Shown here: in pieces, positions 45,152 to 54,896 of the stretch
Numbering within the stretch: position 1 is the stretch's first letter
Layout of the letters: each line of letters begins with the position of its first letter
Assembly: GCF_018325905.1 (NCBI RefSeq)
Contig: NZ_AP021901.1
Coordinates: 5,332,001 to 5,396,000 of the forward strand
From: Pseudomonas sp. St316
GTDB lineage: Bacteria; Pseudomonadota; Gammaproteobacteria; Pseudomonadales; Pseudomonadaceae
Length of the DNA: 64,000 nucleotides
Reading direction: 5' to 3'
Made by a program: the position numbers and the translations under genes
The notes under the pieces: model-generated
Databases searched by the model: none
What the model saw: the letters and a program-made list of their open reading frames with translations, nothing else
Told to the model about the DNA's origin: nothing

Positions 45152-46143
45152 AACGTATCCACCTCGACCTCGATACCCGTGCAATACGGCGCCTGGAAAG
45201 CCGTGGTCACGATCGGTGCAAGCGGCTCGAGAATCTGCAGCTGAACCGCGCCCGCGCTGTGCAGCGTGTAGTCGATCCAGCTCGGGTCCACCCGACCTTC
45301 CAGGCGATGACAAGCTTGGGCATATGCCTGCAACTGCTGCTCGGCGGCAACCTGAGTCAACCCCGAATCCGGGCCGGCATTGATCTTCGCCACGACACGG
45401 ATTTTGTAGGGTTTGATCTGCGCGGCCTGGACGATGACCCGATCCGTTTCCGGTCGCACATCAGGCCGAGCGAAATGCTCGCGAACGCCGTCGAGCAGCG
45501 CCTCGGACGGTGTGCCATTGCCCTCTCGGGACAGCACCGTGACCGTGACTTCGCCTGGCGCAGTGCGGCGGCCATTGCCGTCCTTGACCTGCGCCGCATA
45601 GCCATCCGGGTCGAAGGTGTAGGTAACCGTTACCACGCCCGCCGAGGCATTTTCCACCTTCACGACGGGCCGCTCACCCAAGGTAAAAATCTCCCGCCGA
45701 TACTGCATGCGCGAGCCGGCCGCCGGGGCATGGGGGGCCAGGTAGTAGCGCAACCGGGCGTCATCGTCGCTCTCGTAGACTGCGGGAACGGGCGGAAACG
45801 CTGCAGGATCACCGGGATCAAGCAACTGGCGCTCCAAGCCCATGTCGGCGAGCCGCGCATCGAGGTTGCTGCCCGTGGCCCACCACGCCAGCATCTGCTG
45901 GATGCGGGCGTTGTACTTGCGTTCGTGGGTTTGCAGGCGGACACAGAACGCCTCGAGGGCGAGGGTCAGCAATTCGCTTTGGTTTTCGAGACTGTCCACC
46001 AGCTTCGCCGCGCTGGCGGGCGAACGGGCACCGACGTACTCGACCACGAAGGTCTTGAATTCGGCGAGCAAATCCTCGAACGCTTCGACGGTGACGATGG
46101 CCGGTTCCGCCAGTTGGTTCTGGCCGGGTATCAACATGCTCAT
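45148..46143 (-). CDS. Baseplate protein J (gpJ)
   Basis: A 331-residue baseplate J family wedge protein with typical blocks (ARLADMGLERQLLDPGDP, DDARLRYYLAPHAPAAGS, VTVLSREGNGTPSEALL). Its start overlaps the W stop by four bases and its stop overlaps the I start, so W-J-I are translationally coupled. Confidence 0.93.
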   Translation of the reverse strand: MSMLIPGQNQLAEPAIVTVEAFEDLLAEFKTFVVEYVGARSPASAAKLVDSLENQSELLTLALEAFCVRLQTHERKYNARIQQMLAWWATGSNLDARLADMGLERQLLDPGDPAAFPPVPAVYESDDDARLRYYLAPHAPAAGSRMQYRREIFTLGERPVVKVENASAGVVTVTYTFDPDGYAAQVKDGNGRRTAPGEVTVTVLSREGNGTPSEALLDGVREHFARPDVRPETDRVIVQAAQIKPYKIRVVAKINAGPDSGLTQVAAEQQLQAYAQACHRLEGRVDPSWIDYTLHSAGAVQLQILEPLAPIVTTAFQAPYCTGIEVEVDTL

Positions 46144-46472
46144 GTCACCACCTCGAAAGTCTGTTTGCGGTTTTTCCAGGTGCCGGCGAAACGCAACAAC
46201 AAGCCGGCGCCGTGTCGGCTGGCGACAATGATCTGCGGTTCAAAATCATCGATGCCGTTGTCCGGGTTGTAGAACGCTTGGGCCGCGTGGCTCTGGGCAA
46301 GGATCAGCAGGTCGTCGCCGAGGTTCTGCCCCAGCAACTGCGTGAGGGCGCAGCCATACAGCGGACGCTTCTGGCGAGTGCCCAACGGTGTGGTCAGGGC
46401 CCGGGTGGCGCGCTGCACGAACTGCAGCCAGTCGTCGACCGTGACGCCGGTATTTCGATCGATTCCAATCAT
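46140..46472 (-). CDS. Baseplate wedge protein W (gp25-like)
   Basis: A 110-residue gpW/gp25 protein: MIGIDRNTG start, then RATRALTTPLGTRQKRPLYG, the conserved gp25 block. It contributes the lysozyme-like wedge that triggers sheath contraction. ATG 46472 is chosen over an upstream in-frame start without similarity. Confidence 0.92.
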   Translation of the reverse strand: MIGIDRNTGVTVDDWLQFVQRATRALTTPLGTRQKRPLYGCALTQLLGQNLGDDLLILAQSHAAQAFYNPDNGIDDFEPQIIVASRHGAGLLLRFAGTWKNRKQTFEVVT

Positions 46473-46483
46473 GGGGAAATCTC

Positions 46484-47095
46484 TTATGCGGTACTGATGA
46501 CACGTCCCTGGTGATCCACCACCGGGCCGCTCAGGTGCACACCGGAGGCGTCGAGCCGAATGCCGACGGCGCCCAGTTGCCATTCGATGGCATCGGGCGT
46601 CATCGCCAGCCGCGCCAGGCCAATGTTCAACTGCAGGGCTTCGCGGGAACCGCTGAACGTCGCCGGGCCGTTTTGCCAGTGCAGGACATGACTGCCGTGG
46701 TCGTAGCCGTTTTCCGTACCGTCCTGATAGAGGCGACGCGTCAGCGAGGCCTGGGTCGAGACGGGCGGGAACTGACCGCCGTTGAGGCCGAACAGCGCCA
46801 CCGCCTGTCCACCGCTCTCACCGCCGCCATGGTTGAGCAACAGGCATTGCTCGCCCACGGACGGAATCCGCGACTCGCTCTGGGTCCCGGCGCTCGGGTT
46901 GAAAAAACGGATCGCCGGGGTCAGCAGACCGCCATGGCTGACCTTGCAGGTGTTGCTGGCGGCGTCGACCTCCTGGCAAACGCCGATGCGGCAGAAACTC
47001 TCCGCCCGCCGATGCAGGTCTTCCAGCTCGGTTTCCATCTGCGCCAGACGCTCGATGATCGGCCCCAGATGCATCCGTAGCAGCGCATCAAACAT
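46484..47095 (-). CDS. Baseplate spike protein V (gpV)
   Basis: A 203-residue gpV-like central spike protein. It shows the OB-fold region with PSVGEQCLLLNHGGGESGGQAVAL and a beta-helical C-terminus (VGIRLDASGVHLSGPVVDHQG). It forms the membrane-piercing tip. Confidence 0.93.
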   Translation of the reverse strand: MFDALLRMHLGPIIERLAQMETELEDLHRRAESFCRIGVCQEVDAASNTCKVSHGGLLTPAIRFFNPSAGTQSESRIPSVGEQCLLLNHGGGESGGQAVALFGLNGGQFPPVSTQASLTRRLYQDGTENGYDHGSHVLHWQNGPATFSGSREALQLNIGLARLAMTPDAIEWQLGAVGIRLDASGVHLSGPVVDHQGRVISTA

Positions 47096-47098
47096 GGC

Positions 47099-47611
47099 TC
47101 AGCCCTCGAGTGCGGTGTATTGGTCCGGGTCGTCGATGTTCGAGACTTCCCAGGTACGGGCAAATTTCGGGATGCCCAACGGGTCCTCCAGCAGCGTCGG
47201 GCCCAAGTACAAGGTTTGGTGGAATAAAAGGGTCCAGGCGGTGTACGTCCGTGCCGGGCTGATGAACGTGGACGCAAGACCATCGATCTCCGTGGGCAGA
47301 TCGCATTGGTCGCCCGACAGTCCCCAGCGGTTGTCCACGACCAGGTGTTTCAGCTCACCGGCCAGGTCGCACGCTTCCCATCCCGGAACGGCCATGACCA
47401 CCTGCAGGGAAACCGTCAGGACATGGGCGATACGCCCGTCGTTGGCGCGGTTGCCTGACGCATCACGTTCAATGGCAATCAGCACCCAGGGCTGGTCGTC
47501 GGTGCCATCAAAATCCTGAGGGCTGCCGATTTTCAAAGTCGGATAAGTGGCGCGCAGCGTCTGGGCAATGGCGGCGAACAGCTGCGACGGTTTTTCGATA
47601 AGGACGGGCAT
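47099..47611 (-). CDS. Hypothetical tailocin protein (PA0615 position)
   Basis: A 170-residue protein between holin and gpV, the slot of PA0615 in R-pyocin. It contains LKIGSPQDFDGTDDQPWVLI and ends NIDDPDQYTALEG, with no motif I can name. By position it could be a tail completion or terminator protein, but this is inference. Confidence 0.8.
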   Translation of the reverse strand: MPVLIEKPSQLFAAIAQTLRATYPTLKIGSPQDFDGTDDQPWVLIAIERDASGNRANDGRIAHVLTVSLQVVMAVPGWEACDLAGELKHLVVDNRWGLSGDQCDLPTEIDGLASTFISPARTYTAWTLLFHQTLYLGPTLLEDPLGIPKFARTWEVSNIDDPDQYTALEG

Positions 47612-47647
47612 TGATCGCCTCCTTGTGTATGGATCAACAATGTCGAT

Positions 47648-47998
47648 TCATGGCTGGTCGGGAGGAACGTCCCGCGGTGGCACTTCGCAGACGCCAATCC
47701 GCTTGGCGACCCAGCGCTCGTAAAGACCGATCGCCACATCGGCACCGGCCATGGCGGTCAGGCAACCCAGGGCGCAGGCGCTCCAGATCGACATGCCGAG
47801 GGCGTACAACAGCATGGTTGCCGACACGCCGCAGACCACGCAGGCACCGGAGCGCAAGGCCAGGCGCCGCAACAGCGACCAGCCGCGGGCGCCCTCCTTG
47901 TCGGCGCGCCACATCTCGCCGGACACCCCGCCCACCAGGGCGAGCACGATGACCAGCCAGATCGGCATGTCCAGCAACGCTTGTTGCTCGTTTGTCAT
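47648..47998 (-). CDS. Holin (tailocin)
   Basis: A 116-residue membrane protein with a hydrophobic segment at 12-28 (PIWLVIVLALVGGVSGE) and others at about 50-90 (ACVVCGVSATMLLYALGMSIWSACALGCL), ending in a hydrophilic tail. It strongly resembles the R-pyocin holin PA0614. It makes inner-membrane lesions that release the GH19 endolysin. A start site AGGAAACGAGAC precedes ATG 47998. Confidence 0.9.
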   Translation of the reverse strand: MTNEQQALLDMPIWLVIVLALVGGVSGEMWRADKEGARGWSLLRRLALRSGACVVCGVSATMLLYALGMSIWSACALGCLTAMAGADVAIGLYERWVAKRIGVCEVPPRDVPPDQP

Positions 47999-48130
47999 GT
48001 CTCGTTTCCTGGGGATGATTAATATTGGACGGGTAAGTTTTTTTGAAATGGAATGAGATGCGGGTCGGTGAAACCCACTAAATCGCTAGAAACGGCGTTC
48101 AAGCGTTTTTCAGGTAATTGGGGGCTTACA

Positions 48131-48559
48131 TCACTTTGGCGCAGCGCAGGTCGCGCCTTTGTAAGTCATGGTGTAGGTGTAGTGCCGGTCCCAAGGCAGC
48201 GGTAGCCCGCTGGGGGCTGCCCATTCCGCGTAGTTGCCCGACATCGACCCCACGGCAACGACCTTACCCATGGCAATGGTCGCGAGATTGTTGGCGCTCC
48301 CTGCACCCGGCATTGGCACACTCCCGTTCCATTGGAGGTCTTCTCCGTTCTGGAACCATGCGCCCTTCCAGCCGGCCTGCGAGCTCGAGTACCAGGTGTT
48401 GTCTGCTTTGAAACAGATCGTTTGGTTGGCGAAAAAACCACCGCCCGGAACGTGGTAGGAAGCGAATTGCCAGGAACCGACAGGTGAGGTTTCAGCAATG
48501 GCTTGGATGGCCTGGGAGGCCAGGACTGCTGCGATCAGCACACTGAGCATTTTTTTCAT
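48131..48559 (-). CDS. Secreted protein of unknown function at the head of the tailocin operon
   Basis: A 142-residue protein with a Sec signal peptide (residues 1-22, ending AIAETS). The mature domain of about 120 residues is rich in Trp, Tyr and Gly (SWQFASYHVPGGGFF, WYSSSQAGWKGAWFQNGEDLQW) and has two cysteines. I do not recognise the family. It is the first intact gene after the operator-covered promoter (48890-48918), so it would be induced with the tailocin. It has no counterpart in R-pyocin and may be an accessory cargo gene. Confidence 0.78.
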   Translation of the reverse strand: MKKMLSVLIAAVLASQAIQAIAETSPVGSWQFASYHVPGGGFFANQTICFKADNTWYSSSQAGWKGAWFQNGEDLQWNGSVPMPGAGSANNLATIAMGKVVAVGSMSGNYAEWAAPSGLPLPWDRHYTYTMTYKGATCAAPK

Positions 48560-48678
48560 TAACTGACTTCCTTTAGGTAAGTAGCTTTGTTGGGACGTTG
48601 ATAGGAATCTTTATCGGAAGCACCTCACGGCACAGGCATTCCAAAAAGCCCGGTCGCCCAGGCTTTTCAGTAATGCGC

Positions 48679-48822
48679 TTAATCTTTCGGCGCGACTGGC
48701 GCGGTACGGATCCATTCAAATTGTTTTTCCGACCGCGGTCCCTGCCCGCCGGATAACTGCTTCTGGTGCTTTACGCTGCACACCCGGGTCAGTTGCCAAC
48801 CCTCTGAACCGTTAAGGCCGGT
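48679..48822 (-). pseudogene. Possible truncated remnant of a small gene
   Basis: A 47-codon open frame ending in TAA with coding-like composition: GSEGWQLTRVCSVKHQKQLS and a C-terminus FEWIRTAPVAPKD. The EGWQL and F-WIR pattern recalls small DUF4177-like proteins (EGWELVSV and FKR). There is no start codon of usual type; a TGA bounds it upstream. It lies in the tailocin leader. Weak evidence. Confidence 0.3.
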
Positions 48823-48889
48823 TCATCGCTGCCTGTTGGTGGAACTAAAGAGCTTCGTTGCCAGCCGCTTTGTCGAGCGGCTTGGACAT

Positions 48890-48918
48890 AGAATATGCAT
48901 GGATGCATATACAGTCAA
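48890..48918 (-). promoter_or_regulatory. Leftward promoter of the tailocin operon
   Basis: On the minus strand TTGACT (48918-48913), exactly 17 nt, then TATTCT (48895-48890). The spacer contains the perfect palindrome at 48893-48910 and the -35 overlaps the palindrome at 48917-48932, as expected for a repressed promoter. Confidence 0.75.
48893..48910. promoter_or_regulatory. Operator 1 for the tailocin repressor (predicted)
   Basis: ATATGCATGGATGCATAT, an 18-bp perfect palindrome of the form ATGCAT-NN-ATGCAT covering spacer and -10. Confidence 0.72.
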
Positions 48919-48932
48919 TGCATAAATGCATT
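48917..48932. promoter_or_regulatory. Operator 2 (predicted)
   Basis: AATGCATAAATGCATT, 16-bp perfect palindrome of the same form, touching the -35. Confidence 0.72.
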
Positions 48933-48946
48933 TATTTATGCGCGCG

Positions 48947-48964
48947 AAATGCACAAACGCATTT
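48947..48964. promoter_or_regulatory. Operator 3 (predicted, degenerate)
   Basis: AAATGCACAAACGCATTT, the same ATGCAN-NN-NNGCAT form with one mismatched pair, about 31 bp from operator 2 centre to centre. Confidence 0.6.
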
Positions 48965-49004
48965 AACCCTCGTAAACACGGGTGTTGGGAGTTTTCAGGA
49001 GGCG

Positions 49005-49032
49005 AAAAAAAACCCGCACGGCGGCGGGTTTT
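49005..49032 (-). terminator. Terminator of the repressor gene
   Basis: On the minus strand AAAACCCGC-CGCCGT-GCGGGTTTTTTTT, 18 nt beyond the repressor stop. It separates the repressor transcript from the tailocin promoter region. Confidence 0.88.
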
Positions 49033-49049
49033 ATCTGACAGCGGGGGGG

Positions 49050-49784
49050 TTAGCGGGCGTACATGCCCCACCAGAAGACATGACCGAGGATGACGATTTG
49101 CTCATCCTGCATTTCCTGGAAGGTGTAGTCCTCGTCCGGATGTTCATCACGGTTGAAGCTGCGCAGGCGAATGCCAGTGGGCAGGCGATAAAGCTGCTTC
49201 ACCCGCAATTGGCCATTGTGGTTGATGGCGTAGAGGTCACCGTCGACGATGTCGCCGATCCCACATTTACCTGCGTTCACCCCAACCGTGGCCCCGTCGC
49301 GCAGCACAGGCAACATGCTGTTGCCGCGCACCGTCACGCATTTGGCCTGGTCGAACTGCACACCGTTGTGGCGCAGGCTGCGCTTGCCGAAGCGCAGACT
49401 TGAGCGTTCGCTTTCCTCGATGACGAATCTTCCTGATCCAGCAGCCAATTCAACCTCGCGCAGAAAAGGGACCGAGACCTCGTCTTCCTCGACGGGTGTT
49501 TCGTCGTCCCACAGGCTTATGTCCTTGAGTTCGGAATGCGGCTCGTCGCGGCGGGCATTGCCGACGGGCACAACGTCCGCGCGCCCGCGCAGCTGGTCGG
49601 TGCTCACGGCAAAATATTCGGCGATCTTCGAGATGTGTTTATCCGAAGGGTCGACGATCTTGCCGCTGAGGATCCGCGAGAGGGTGGACTGAGGCACGCC
49701 GGTACGCCGGTGAAGCTCCGTGGGGGAGATCCCGTGCTGGTCGAGCAATGCTCTTAATACGGTAGAAACGTTGCGTTTTTGCAT
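49050..49784 (-). CDS. Autocleavable tailocin repressor (S24 family, PrtR/CI-like)
   Basis: A 244-residue repressor. The N-terminal XRE helix-turn-helix is HGISPTELHRRTGVPQSTLSRILSGK. The C-terminal S24 peptidase has a cleavage site in VELAAGSGRF (Ala-Gly), catalytic Ser in VRGNSMLPVLRDG and Lys in GQLRVKQLY. It should self-cleave when stimulated by RecA filaments. Start MQKRNVSTVLRALL at 49784 is favoured by the domain; in-frame starts at 49793 and 49865 exist and no strong ribosome-binding site decides. TGCAT half-sites overlap its start region. Confidence 0.88.
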   Translation of the reverse strand: MQKRNVSTVLRALLDQHGISPTELHRRTGVPQSTLSRILSGKIVDPSDKHISKIAEYFAVSTDQLRGRADVVPVGNARRDEPHSELKDISLWDDETPVEEDEVSVPFLREVELAAGSGRFVIEESERSSLRFGKRSLRHNGVQFDQAKCVTVRGNSMLPVLRDGATVGVNAGKCGIGDIVDGDLYAINHNGQLRVKQLYRLPTGIRLRSFNRDEHPDEDYTFQEMQDEQIVILGHVFWWGMYAR

Positions 49785-49828
49785 AACGCGCATAGTGCTT
49801 GTTCTTTTCGCAGAAGACAAATGCTGTT

Positions 49829-49846
49829 TTGCATAAACGTGCATAT
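49829..49846. promoter_or_regulatory. Operator-like half-site pair upstream of the repressor
   Basis: TTGCATAAACGTGCATAT carries two TGCAT half-sites but with a wider centre than operators 1-3. A similar pair, TTGCATAACGCGCATA, lies at 49780-49795 over the start codon. These may serve autoregulation. Confidence 0.4.
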
Positions 49847-49930
49847 CAATGATGAGATCGCTCACATCTGGGGCGTGTCGGACCGCGTATTGAAGACGGC
49901 GGAGCCTTCAACATCAATACAGGCTGACTT

Positions 49931-50036: not shown

Positions 50037-50273
50037 GCGCATTCAACATCAATGCAAGATGATCCAACGCTGTCTCTGGCTACGTAGGGCAGCCAGCTTT
50101 TTTGTGAGCGCTTCGCACTCAAGCGGGAGCAAGCTCCCTCGCCACGGATCAATCCGAAATTTTCCCTACAACCTCATGGGAAATCGCCCGATCCGCGTCC
50201 TTCAATTGTGCGGCACCAGGCTACGTCGTCTTGCGCCTCTGCCTACAACTACGCCAGAATCCGCCGGCTTGTC
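50037..50273. other. Non-coding stretch upstream of the DUF6124 leader
   Basis: Apart from the single REP copy at 50121-50145, I see no gene, promoter or repeat that I can support in this stretch. Confidence 0.4.
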
Positions 50274-50351
50274 CATCTTGGATCCCACCGGTACTTTGGT
50301 TCTCGTCACTGCCCATCAGTGATCGGGTTTAGTAGCTCGGCATCCAAGATG
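50274..50351 (+). other. Leader element A upstream of the DUF6124 gene
   Basis: CATCTTGGAT (50274-50283) is the exact complement of ATCCAAGATG (50342-50351), whose last three bases are a start codon. Inside, TCACTG and CAGTGA form a small hairpin, and GTTTAGTAGC is shared with element B. It looks like a shorter, diverged copy of element B. Confidence 0.6.
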
Positions 50352-50531
50352 TTCATTGCTCCATTCAGTCAGGTATTCCTTCTCCTGCGCTCAATGGTAG
50401 CTGTGCGCAGGGCGCCCTCGGGTGCGCCGGTTTCTTGGATCCCCGGTCTACTAACCTGCGTACAGCTGCCACCCACTTCGTTTAGTAGCGAATCGGTGGT
50501 GGCTCTCACTTCGAGGATCCAAGAATCATGA
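50349..50531 (+). CDS. Leader ORF overlapping the DUF6124 start (predicted)
   Basis: A 60-codon frame (MFIAPFSQVFLLLRSMVAV to ALTSRIQES) whose TGA overlaps the ATG of the downstream gene by four bases (ATGA). Its coding sequence contains the stem-forming element B. The product is not like a folded protein I know. Its translation would melt the leader helices and could couple to the DUF6124 gene. Whether it is translated is unproven. Confidence 0.45.
   Translation: MFIAPFSQVFLLLRSMVAVRRAPSGAPVSWIPGLLTCVQLPPTSFSSESVVALTSRIQES
50396..50527 (+). promoter_or_regulatory. Structured mRNA element B with two mutually exclusive helices
   Basis: Segment 50396-50411 pairs along all 16 nt with 50455-50470 (two G-U pairs). 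Alternatively 50464-50473 pairs along all 10 nt with 50495-50504 (two G-U pairs); the two overlap at 50464-50470, so they cannot coexist. TTCTTGGATCC (50432-50442) is the exact complement of GGATCCAAGAA (50515-50525), which ends 2 nt before the DUF6124 start codon. CTACTAA (50448-50454) also matches TTAGTAG (50482-50488). Confidence 0.6.
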
Positions 50532-50887
50532 GCAAGAACACGTCCAATCCCCCCACCCCAGACGATCACGTCTCCCGCAGCCAATCGGCCAACGCCAAGA
50601 AACTCGACGACGCGGCCACTCGCGCCCTGGACTATTACCTCAAACCAAAAGCCGACAAAGAAACCTGCGACACCCTCGACACCCTTTTCGTCATCGCCCC
50701 TAACGTCGATGCCGAATGCCTGCTCGCCAATCTCAGCGAAACCCTGGCCTCGACCAATGCCATGGTCAGCGACCTGGCATTCGACCTGAAGGGCTCGCGG
50801 CGGCATATCGCCCTGGGGGTCCAGCAGATGATCGAGCTGAGCCAGTTGCTCGCGAATCGAGCGTTGGATGTAGTCGATCCGAGGTAG
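50528..50887 (+). CDS. DUF6124-type Pseudomonas protein
   Basis: A 119-residue protein: a polar N-terminus, then DDAATRALDYYLKPKADKE and a helical C-terminal half (TLASTNAMVSDLAFDLKGSRRHIALGVQQMIELSQLL). This is the pattern of small proteins called DUF6124/DUF3077, common in multiple copies in Pseudomonas; the assignment is from memory. No function is known. The gene follows a complex leader and lies between the tailocin repressor and mutS. Confidence 0.72.
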   Translation: MSKNTSNPPTPDDHVSRSQSANAKKLDDAATRALDYYLKPKADKETCDTLDTLFVIAPNVDAECLLANLSETLASTNAMVSDLAFDLKGSRRHIALGVQQMIELSQLLANRALDVVDPR

Positions 50888-50933
50888 GCATCCGTGATGC
50901 AAACCGGGATTTAAGAGAAGCCCGAGTAATCAC

Positions 50934-51022
50934 TGTGGGAGCGAGCTTGCTCGCGATAGCGGTAGTTCAGTTACAACTAAGTTGTATTGGCTGCCGTCAT
51001 CGCGAGCAAGCTCGCTCCCACA
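50934..51022. repeat. REP doublet
   Basis: TGTGGGAGCGAGCTTGCTCG and its complement about 50 nt apart, just downstream of the DUF6124 gene. Confidence 0.9.
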
Positions 51023-51033
51023 ATTGGATCGGG

Positions 51034-51235
51034 GTACGACCGGGAGAGCCAGGTCGGCTATCAGACCGCTTCGCGAGCAAGCTTTGCTCCCACAACAGAT
51101 TTGATGGGTGTACGACCGGGAGAGCCAGGTCGGCTATCAGACCGCCTCGCGAGCAAGCTTTGCTCCCACAACAGATTTGATGGGTGTACGACCGGGAGAG
51201 CCAGGCCGGCTGTCAGGCCGCCTCGCGGTGGACGT
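51034..51235. repeat. Tandem repeat, 76-bp unit, 2.7 copies
   Basis: Units start with GTACGACCGGGAGAGCCAGG at 51034, 51110 and 51186. The first two are nearly identical; the third breaks off after about 50 nt. Each full unit contains a REP-like GCGAGCAAGCTTTGCTCCCAC, so it is an expanded single REP with its flank. Confidence 0.92.
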
Positions 51236-54756: not shown

Positions 54757-54889
54757 AAAAAAAGGGGCGGTTTGACCCGCCCACATTTTTTCCCTAATCC
54801 CTTTAATCCTTTTCATCATCCTGATGAATCGCGTCCTGCGATGTCCTTCCTTCCCATCGTCCTTGACGGGTGTGTCTGTCCGTCGACAC
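54757..54889 (-). ncRNA. rsmZ: RsmZ regulatory RNA
   Basis: Minus-strand RNA of about 130 nt between fdxA and rpoS, the conserved rsmZ place. It begins TGTCGACGGACAGACAC and carries about ten GGA motifs (such as CAAGGACG, GGAAGGACAT, GCAGGACGC, TCAGGATGA, AAGGATTA), the RsmA/RsmE binding signature. It ends with terminator GGGCGG-GTCAAA-CCGCCC and a T run. RsmZ sequesters Rsm translational repressors downstream of GacS/GacA, turning on secondary metabolism. Exact ends are estimated. Confidence 0.92.
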
Positions 54890-54896
54890 AGGGCTG

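Follow-up and report, generated by a model that had tools for sequence, protein, structure and literature searches.

Within the window (the whole 64,000-nucleotide stretch of Pseudomonas sp. St316 DNA that was analysed), a gene coding for a DUF6124 protein is preceded by a leader (50274-50531) with several mutually complementary segments, which raises the question of what kind of RNA the leader represents and how it might control the adjoining gene. A preliminary description made from the sequence alone took it for a translational switch or attenuator and knew of no previous description of such an element. In fact, an Rfam scan matches 50390-50476 of the forward strand to the C4 antisense RNA family (RF01695; 81.9 bits, E 1.6e-14, gathering score 45), which, together with an upstream c4-a1b1 element (RF03163), constitutes the C4 system of phages P1 and P7; no other Rfam family matches within 50274-50531 at E up to 1. 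The element is thus a genuine C4 antisense RNA, a well-supported member of a known RNA family, and we hold with high confidence that the leader is a C4 antisense RNA cassette controlling the DUF6124 gene.

Identity and architecture of the leader RNA

The minimum free energy structure of the C4 segment coincides with the family consensus, in which a closing stem and two hairpins surround an unpaired junction. Folded in isolation, the 87-nt element lies 5.6 standard deviations below its shuffles (z -5.6), and the longer leader 50305-50600 lies 3.3 standard deviations below its own. Several observations of the preliminary description find their place in this architecture (Table 1). Its 16-nt helix (50396-50411 with 50455-50470) pairs at all 16 positions, two of them as G-U, and is the closing stem of C4. 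Similarly, 50432-50442 is indeed the exact reverse complement of 50515-50525 (11/11), the two being loop b' and its target site b2; an exact inverted repeat of at least 11 nt occurs in none of 300 dinucleotide shuffles of 50274-50531.

Table 1. Parts of the C4 cassette and the gene that it precedes (coordinates of the window)
Feature	Coordinates	Strand	Remarks
Predicted promoter of the cassette	50269-50297	+	TTGTCC, 17 nt, TACTTT; by eye, in upstream sequence conserved among many C4 paralogs
c4-a1b1 element (most of Element A)	50292-50343	+	RF03163, 30.1 bits, E 3.1e-05, below the gathering score of 46.7
a1 target site	50329-50335	+	TTAGTAG; 7/7 complementary to a'; in a predicted hairpin loop
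b1 target site	50339-50349	+	partial complement of b', score 8.5
C4 antisense RNA	50390-50476	+	mature form probably about 50396-50473, ends by analogy with P1 and A. baumannii
Loop b' of C4	50431-50442	+	50432-50442 exactly complementary to b2
Junction loop a' of C4	50448-50454	+	CTACTAA; exact complement of a1 and a2; not listed in the preliminary description
Alternative helix, 5' strand (also C4 3' arm)	50464-50473	+	pairs with 50495-50504
a2 hairpin	50477-50492	+	TTCG/CGAA stem, 8-nt loop; 87.2% of lettered cells paired
a2 target site	50482-50488	+	TTAGTAG; 7/7 complementary to a'
Alternative helix, 3' strand	50495-50504	+	pairs with 50464-50473
b2 target site	50515-50525	+	11/11 to b'; overlaps the Shine-Dalgarno sequence GAGGA (50513-50517, by eye)
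DUF6124 gene (controlled gene)	50528-50887	+	119 aa; PF19619, 107.7 bits, cut-off 27

For comparison we assembled 88 C4 loci, comprising 25 from the same genome and 63 from relatives, the latter being the best-scoring matches listed rather than a random sample; five further fetched loci from relatives were dropped, four with no nhmmer C4 match (L045, L046, L065, L082) and one as a duplicate (L083). In the alignment of 85 of these (A3; L025 and L095, with no clear a2, and L085, with no clear b2, were left out, which favours the pairing counts), 98.3% of the cells of the 27 pairs of the C4 stems are paired and 20 of the 27 pairs are changed on both sides. Covariation, which the preliminary description had named as the check on its two helices, is present in both across these 85 loci, if more weakly in the 10-nt one discussed below. 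In the a2 stem all four pairs are changed on both sides, one of them being gapped in 63 of the 85 rows.

The upstream part of the leader had been described, as Element A, as a shorter second copy of the main structure. It turns out to be the a1/b1 target site, which shares only short words with the main element. The 5' half of the supposed second copy (50275-50289) falls in the predicted promoter spacer and is unconserved in four aligned homologues, and we treat its likeness to b' as due to chance, helped by a CCTTGG-like word that is common in the promoter spacer. A consensus promoter scanner reported nothing at its threshold at 50269-50297; the distance from the predicted -10 element to a1 is 31 nt, the same as from P1c4 to a1 in phage P1. 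As to the a1b1 element itself, 11 of the 28 RF03163 matches listed in this genome pass the curated cut-off, and a match to the model at E up to 1 is situated 37-62 nt upstream of 21 of the 25 C4 copies.

Cassette-specific pairing of C4 RNAs with their targets

The genome encodes 25 C4 copies above the cut-off, and in these a' is complementary over 7 nt to its own a2 in 22 cases and to its own a1 in 23. Pairing was measured by an ungapped complementarity score with a permutation test, in place of RNAduplex energies. Over the 25 loci the mean score of cognate against non-cognate combinations is 6.88 vs 4.29 for a'-a2, 8.48 vs 5.11 for b'-b2, 6.88 vs 4.85 for a'-a1 and 7.20 vs 5.42 for b'-b1. Among the paralogs, b'-b1 is the poorest match of the four. 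The cognate partner is joint best in 22, 17, 24 and 9 of the 25 rows, respectively, and none of 20,000 permutations, which treat related loci as independent, reaches the cognate mean in any of the four. With RNAduplex energies the cognate means are better in all four tests, and the cognate comes first in 6, 12, 16 and 3 of the 25 rows in the same order, these low ranks probably arising because GC-rich flanks dominated the energies and locus L018 was mis-parsed.

The same pattern extends to the relatives. Across all 88 loci a 7-nt match of a' is found at a2 in 80 and at a1 in 79, and the matches at a2 comprise 32 different words, a few deviating from the 7-nt length either way. As before, no permutation attains any of the four observed cognate means, and the cognate ranks joint best in 53 (a'-a2), 49 (b'-b2), 63 (a'-a1) and 22 (b'-b1) loci; these modest counts may in part be due to words and orthologs shared between loci. 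Over the 85 aligned loci, a'-a2 is paired in 98.3% of cells vs 72.3% when shuffled, with a covariation of 0.771 vs 0.232; the counts of double-changed pairs and of pair types do not rise above those of the shuffles. Among 24 loci of the genome (L025 left out), a full a match is seen in 38 of 552 non-cognate pairs, and a full a match combined with at least 85% of the cognate b score in just two of the 552, so that cross-talk between cassettes looks limited. Comparison of these sequences thus indicates that the pairing of C4 with its own targets is under selection.

A further view of the same relationship is offered by homologues of this very locus. The phage record EU982300 (host P. fluorescens Q8r1-96) has a DUF6124 gene beside prtR, as in the window, and carries CGACTAA as a' with TTAGTCG at both a1 and a2; a single substitution is thereby answered at two distant sites. 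Over 26 homologues (EU982300, L105 and 24 viral-contig loci with a PrtR-like gene, together 22 distinct leaders), a' reads CGACTAA in 18 and CTACTAA in eight, and the two targets agree with a' in all 26; since these are related sequences, the co-changes may amount to few events.

These data bear on the possibility that the cassette is a decayed relic of phage immunity devoid of present function. Decayed copies do exist: the C4 copy L025 has lost its target, and the DUF6124 locus L027 keeps an a1b1 match upstream with no C4 match between it and the gene; L006, with a poor b2, is a further exception to the pairing pattern. Against decay at the locus under study speak pairings that are still specific both here and across most paralogs, the concordance of both targets with a' throughout the 26 homologues and the intact coding frame of the DUF6124 gene. 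We therefore regard a functionless relic as very improbable and retain the C4 antisense cassette as the preferred reading.

An alternative helix and a leader ORF

The second helix of the preliminary description (50464-50473 with 50495-50504) is likewise real: all 10 positions pair, two as G-U, and some of its bases are common to the 16-nt helix, with which it is mutually exclusive. It is possibly a switch component, as judged from sequence, and could form the basis of a self-contained cis switch, in which the C4 fold and this hairpin would set ribosome access between them without any RNA being released. Taken together with the a2 stem over the 85 aligned loci, 82.8% of its cells are paired vs 79.6% in shuffles, covariation is 0.215 vs 0.164, and 56 cells are changed on both sides vs 16.8, of which 34 lie in the exclusive helix itself. 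The helix with the own C4 arm also outscores that with other arms, with 1 of 20,000 permutations reaching its mean for 24 loci of the genome (again without L025) and 0 of 20,000 for the wider set of 88 that includes the 63 from relatives, and by eye it can be drawn for phage P1 with eight of nine pairs.

Nevertheless, the margins are small: cognate 6.32 vs 5.57 and joint best in 3 of 24 for the own loci, and 6.41 vs 5.87 and joint best in 10 of 88 for the wider set. The exclusive helix alone has 81.6% of its cells paired over the 85 loci, with the outermost-numbered pair (columns 110/137) open in 42 of 84. On its own, C4 folds with a much lower energy, -48.3 kcal/mol vs -24.8 kcal/mol for the fragment able to form the alternative (50455-50535), so that on an intact transcript C4 is probably not displaced by the alternative helix; the latter may have a part to play while the RNA is being transcribed, or where the 5' arm is missing. 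Moreover, the complementarity of a' and b' to the a and b sites, including a site upstream of C4, is accounted for by antisense pairing, unlike by a switch, and the C4 of P1 and P7 is a released RNA. A switch operating purely in cis is on these grounds distinctly unlikely.

A different mode of cis-control would be a leader-peptide attenuator, with translation of a short ORF deciding which helix forms. An ORF of 60 codons plus stop does run from the ATG at 50349 to the TGA at 50529-50531, as previously noted; it traverses the structures without a stop, its end overlapping the start codon at 50528 in an ATGA, and the same ORF is kept in five of 28 homologous leaders (L105, L134, L140, L141, L149). 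It is absent from the other 23, including L103, where the AAGATG of the window reads AAGGCG, and an ORF running through C4 to overlap a nearby ATG is found in merely five of the 88 C4 loci, the window locus included. Some ORF passes through C4 in 60 of the 88, with stops 4 to 117 nt past it. The leader ORF was thus ruled out as a working part by its poor conservation, despite its being kept in the closest homologues, and an attenuator of this type appears hardly credible.

The translation of 50349-50531 gives a weak match to the Phage_ASH family (E 0.03, below the cut-off), which may reflect spurious ORFs annotated over C4-like RNAs elsewhere; some annotated 'Ash' proteins may be such spurious ORFs.

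Of the earlier interpretation, what stands is that the leader is a regulatory RNA which, by the complementarity between 50432-50442 and 50515-50525, very probably governs translation of the DUF6124 gene; an antisense RNA excised from the leader is a likelier reading than a self-contained switch or attenuator.

Genomic association with DUF6124 and DUF3077 genes

The genome has 22 DUF6124 and three DUF3077 matches. In 17 of its 25 C4 copies a DUF6124 domain lies 176-215 nt downstream, and in three more a DUF3077 domain; that leaves five, of which L003, L012, L016 and L019 have downstream ORFs without any Pfam match at E up to 0.1, while L025 has lost its target region. Conversely, five of the 22 DUF6124 matches have no C4 within 500 nt upstream. 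Across the 88 loci a downstream ORF was found in 86; in the 82 that were scanned (alignment A1, from which L063, L085, L095 and L100 were left out) the ORF matches DUF6124 in 41, DUF3077 in 13 and Bro-N in two (L037, L038), with no other Pfam family at E up to 0.01.

The association also holds when starting from the gene. In named genomes, C4 lies within 260 nt upstream in 73 of the best 80 DUF6124 loci, all from records titled Pseudomonas, and is lacking there in seven of them; in viral contigs (best 80 of 83 loci, two of the 80 having too little upstream DNA to judge) it does so in 65 of 78 and is lacking in 13. Both sets were obtained with a Pseudomonas-built query. As a PrtR-like gene is present in the fetched flank of 24, and mutS in that of 19, of these best 80 viral-contig loci, a good part of them represent the same repressor/tail-gene region. 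A mobility check returned 1 of 50,697 phage records and 0 of 72,556 plasmid records.

C4 matches at E up to 0.001 occur in 54 of 59 genomes of the genus (this one counted; the genus is taken from the named matches to be Pseudomonas), and matches above the cut-off in 53. A total of 1011 was counted, with a median of 17, a maximum of 54 and at least 10 in 37 genomes. The number of C4 tracks that of DUF6124 plus DUF3077 genes (Spearman 0.93 over the 59 genomes, phylogeny ignored), and the five genomes without C4 have neither family. Outside the genus, a single C4 was found in one of six genomes of the same order. The family membership, architecture, pairing specificity and gene association of the C4 under study are thus all established by comparison.

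The DUF6124 protein itself is modelled by AlphaFold (32 sequences) as three helices, with a mean pLDDT of 76.8 and a pTM of 0.47. No fold in the PDB matches the model at E 0.001 or lower, and the protein has no PDB sequence match and no PADLOC match at E up to 1. The protein of L089 combines a DUF3077 match with a weak DUF6124 match (E 0.025, below the cut-off), hinting that the two families are related. In the A1 and A2 alignments, an N-terminal motif like MxKxTPNPP or MKKxVPDPP is common to proteins with differing C-terminal parts, e.g. before the DUF3077 domain in L089 and before a stretch without Pfam match in L090; either an exchange of modules or constraint close to the start codon could account for it.

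As regards the neighbourhood, the cassette lies next to phage-tail baseplate genes and a gene for a CI-like repressor with an S24 peptidase and a helix-turn-helix domain (46140-49865). Inverted and tandem repeats built on GAGCAAGCTCGCTCCCAC-like units occupy 50932-51210, downstream of the DUF6124 gene; the plant microRNA matches that they give are below the cut-off and probably false. A TwoAYGGAY RNA motif (RF01731; 51260-51379, forward strand; 48.7 bits, slightly over the cut-off of 43) lies upstream of a mutS-like ORF, and a PrrB/RsmZ small RNA (RF00166; 133.6 bits) at 54757-54890 on the reverse strand.

Comparison with previously described systems

The C4 antisense RNA of phages P1 and P7 is reportedly the subject of work by Citron and Schuster from 1990, to which PMC2864571 and PMC5320573 refer. 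In the phage P1 record, a promoter, a1 (48255-48261), b1 (48269-48276), c4 (48343-48419), a2 (48423-48429), b2 (48452-48459) and the icd start (48470) follow one another on one strand. The present cassette has the same order, a1-b1-C4-a2-b2-gene, on a single strand with similar spacing, and shares with P1/P7 C4 the fold, the a' and b' loops, the flanking of C4 by a1/b1 and a2/b2 and the location of b2 at the ribosome-binding site. The words differ, both a1 and a2 being TTAGTAG here and TTGACAG in P1. The antirepressor arrangement of the P1/P7 immI region is not found at this locus: the downstream gene codes for a DUF6124 protein (PF19619), which is controlled instead of icd-ant, and the cassette occurs on the chromosome in multiple copies whose addresses vary. 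Among the downstream ORFs, two members match antirepressor PHROGs. The C4 copies of relatives that precede Bro-N proteins (L037, L038) present a P1-like situation. As in c4-a1b1 (RF03163), the upstream element has an a1 hairpin whose loop contains the target word; it is situated 47 nt before C4, and its score is below the curated cut-off.

The sar RNA of phage P22 is, like C4, an antisense RNA acting on translation initiation in a phage immunity region (PMC12197685). It is a different RNA with an antirepressor target, and is not known to have a C4 fold or an upstream second target. According to PMC5320573, C4 of P1/P7 is excised from a longer transcript, with RNase P acting at its 5' end; in that paper and in PMC12197685, b' covers the ribosome-binding site and a' adds specificity, whereupon translation stops. 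Multiple copies in one genome are known from Acinetobacter baumannii AB5075, whose Group 1 comprises 21 similar C4-like sRNAs in one genome, of which 15 are full length; they are expressed, read coverage is consistent with processing at GGW sites in most, and a' varies (PMC5320573). There the targets, in the passages considered, are left open between incoming phages and bacterial transcripts, whereas here, with few exceptions, a matching target lies just downstream.

C4 and c4-a1b1 are listed in a table of PMC2864571, and the passage of PMC9630843 that mentions a DUF3077 gene does not bring in C4. In the excerpts of the literature searched, we found no link of C4 to DUF6124 and no paper on DUF6124. 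The supplement of PMC2864571, which lies outside the literature covered, possibly contains a prior mention of DUF3077-type genes. Relative to those excerpts, the DUF6124 target family and the many-copy arrangement with private addresses appear undescribed.

Proposed mechanism and implications

By analogy with P1, we infer the following course of transcription, processing, repression and its relief at this locus. A single transcript that begins near 50305 would span the whole cassette, from a1/b1 through C4 and a2/b2 to the gene, and C4 would be cut out of it, as in P1, where RNase P acts at the 5' end. Loop a' would then pair with a2 and loop b' with b2, masking the Shine-Dalgarno sequence; as the pairing at b2 covers the latter, the DUF6124 protein would not be made. 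The a1/b1 element would serve as a second binding site near the 5' end of the transcript. Given that the address differs between cassettes, each C4 should silence mainly its own neighbour.

A broader proposal, which we put forward as speculative and on balance unlikely, is that Pseudomonas chromosomes have domesticated arrays of C4 cassettes, mostly with small genes of the DUF6124/DUF3077 type that are each silenced by their own C4 by means of a private two-part address, with the conserved exclusive helix deciding whether a transcript turns into antisense RNA or into message. If true, such an array would keep a large number of genes each under its own lock, which phage or stress signals might open. 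At the level of the family, the cassette provides a likely control mechanism for DUF6124, which is annotated only as being of 'unknown function', and links the number of DUF6124/DUF3077 genes in the genus to C4 RNAs. It also suggests that the targets of the C4-like RNAs of A. baumannii be sought directly beside each RNA. Finally, the many matched RNA-target pairs within a genome offer natural material on how short loops avoid antisense cross-talk.
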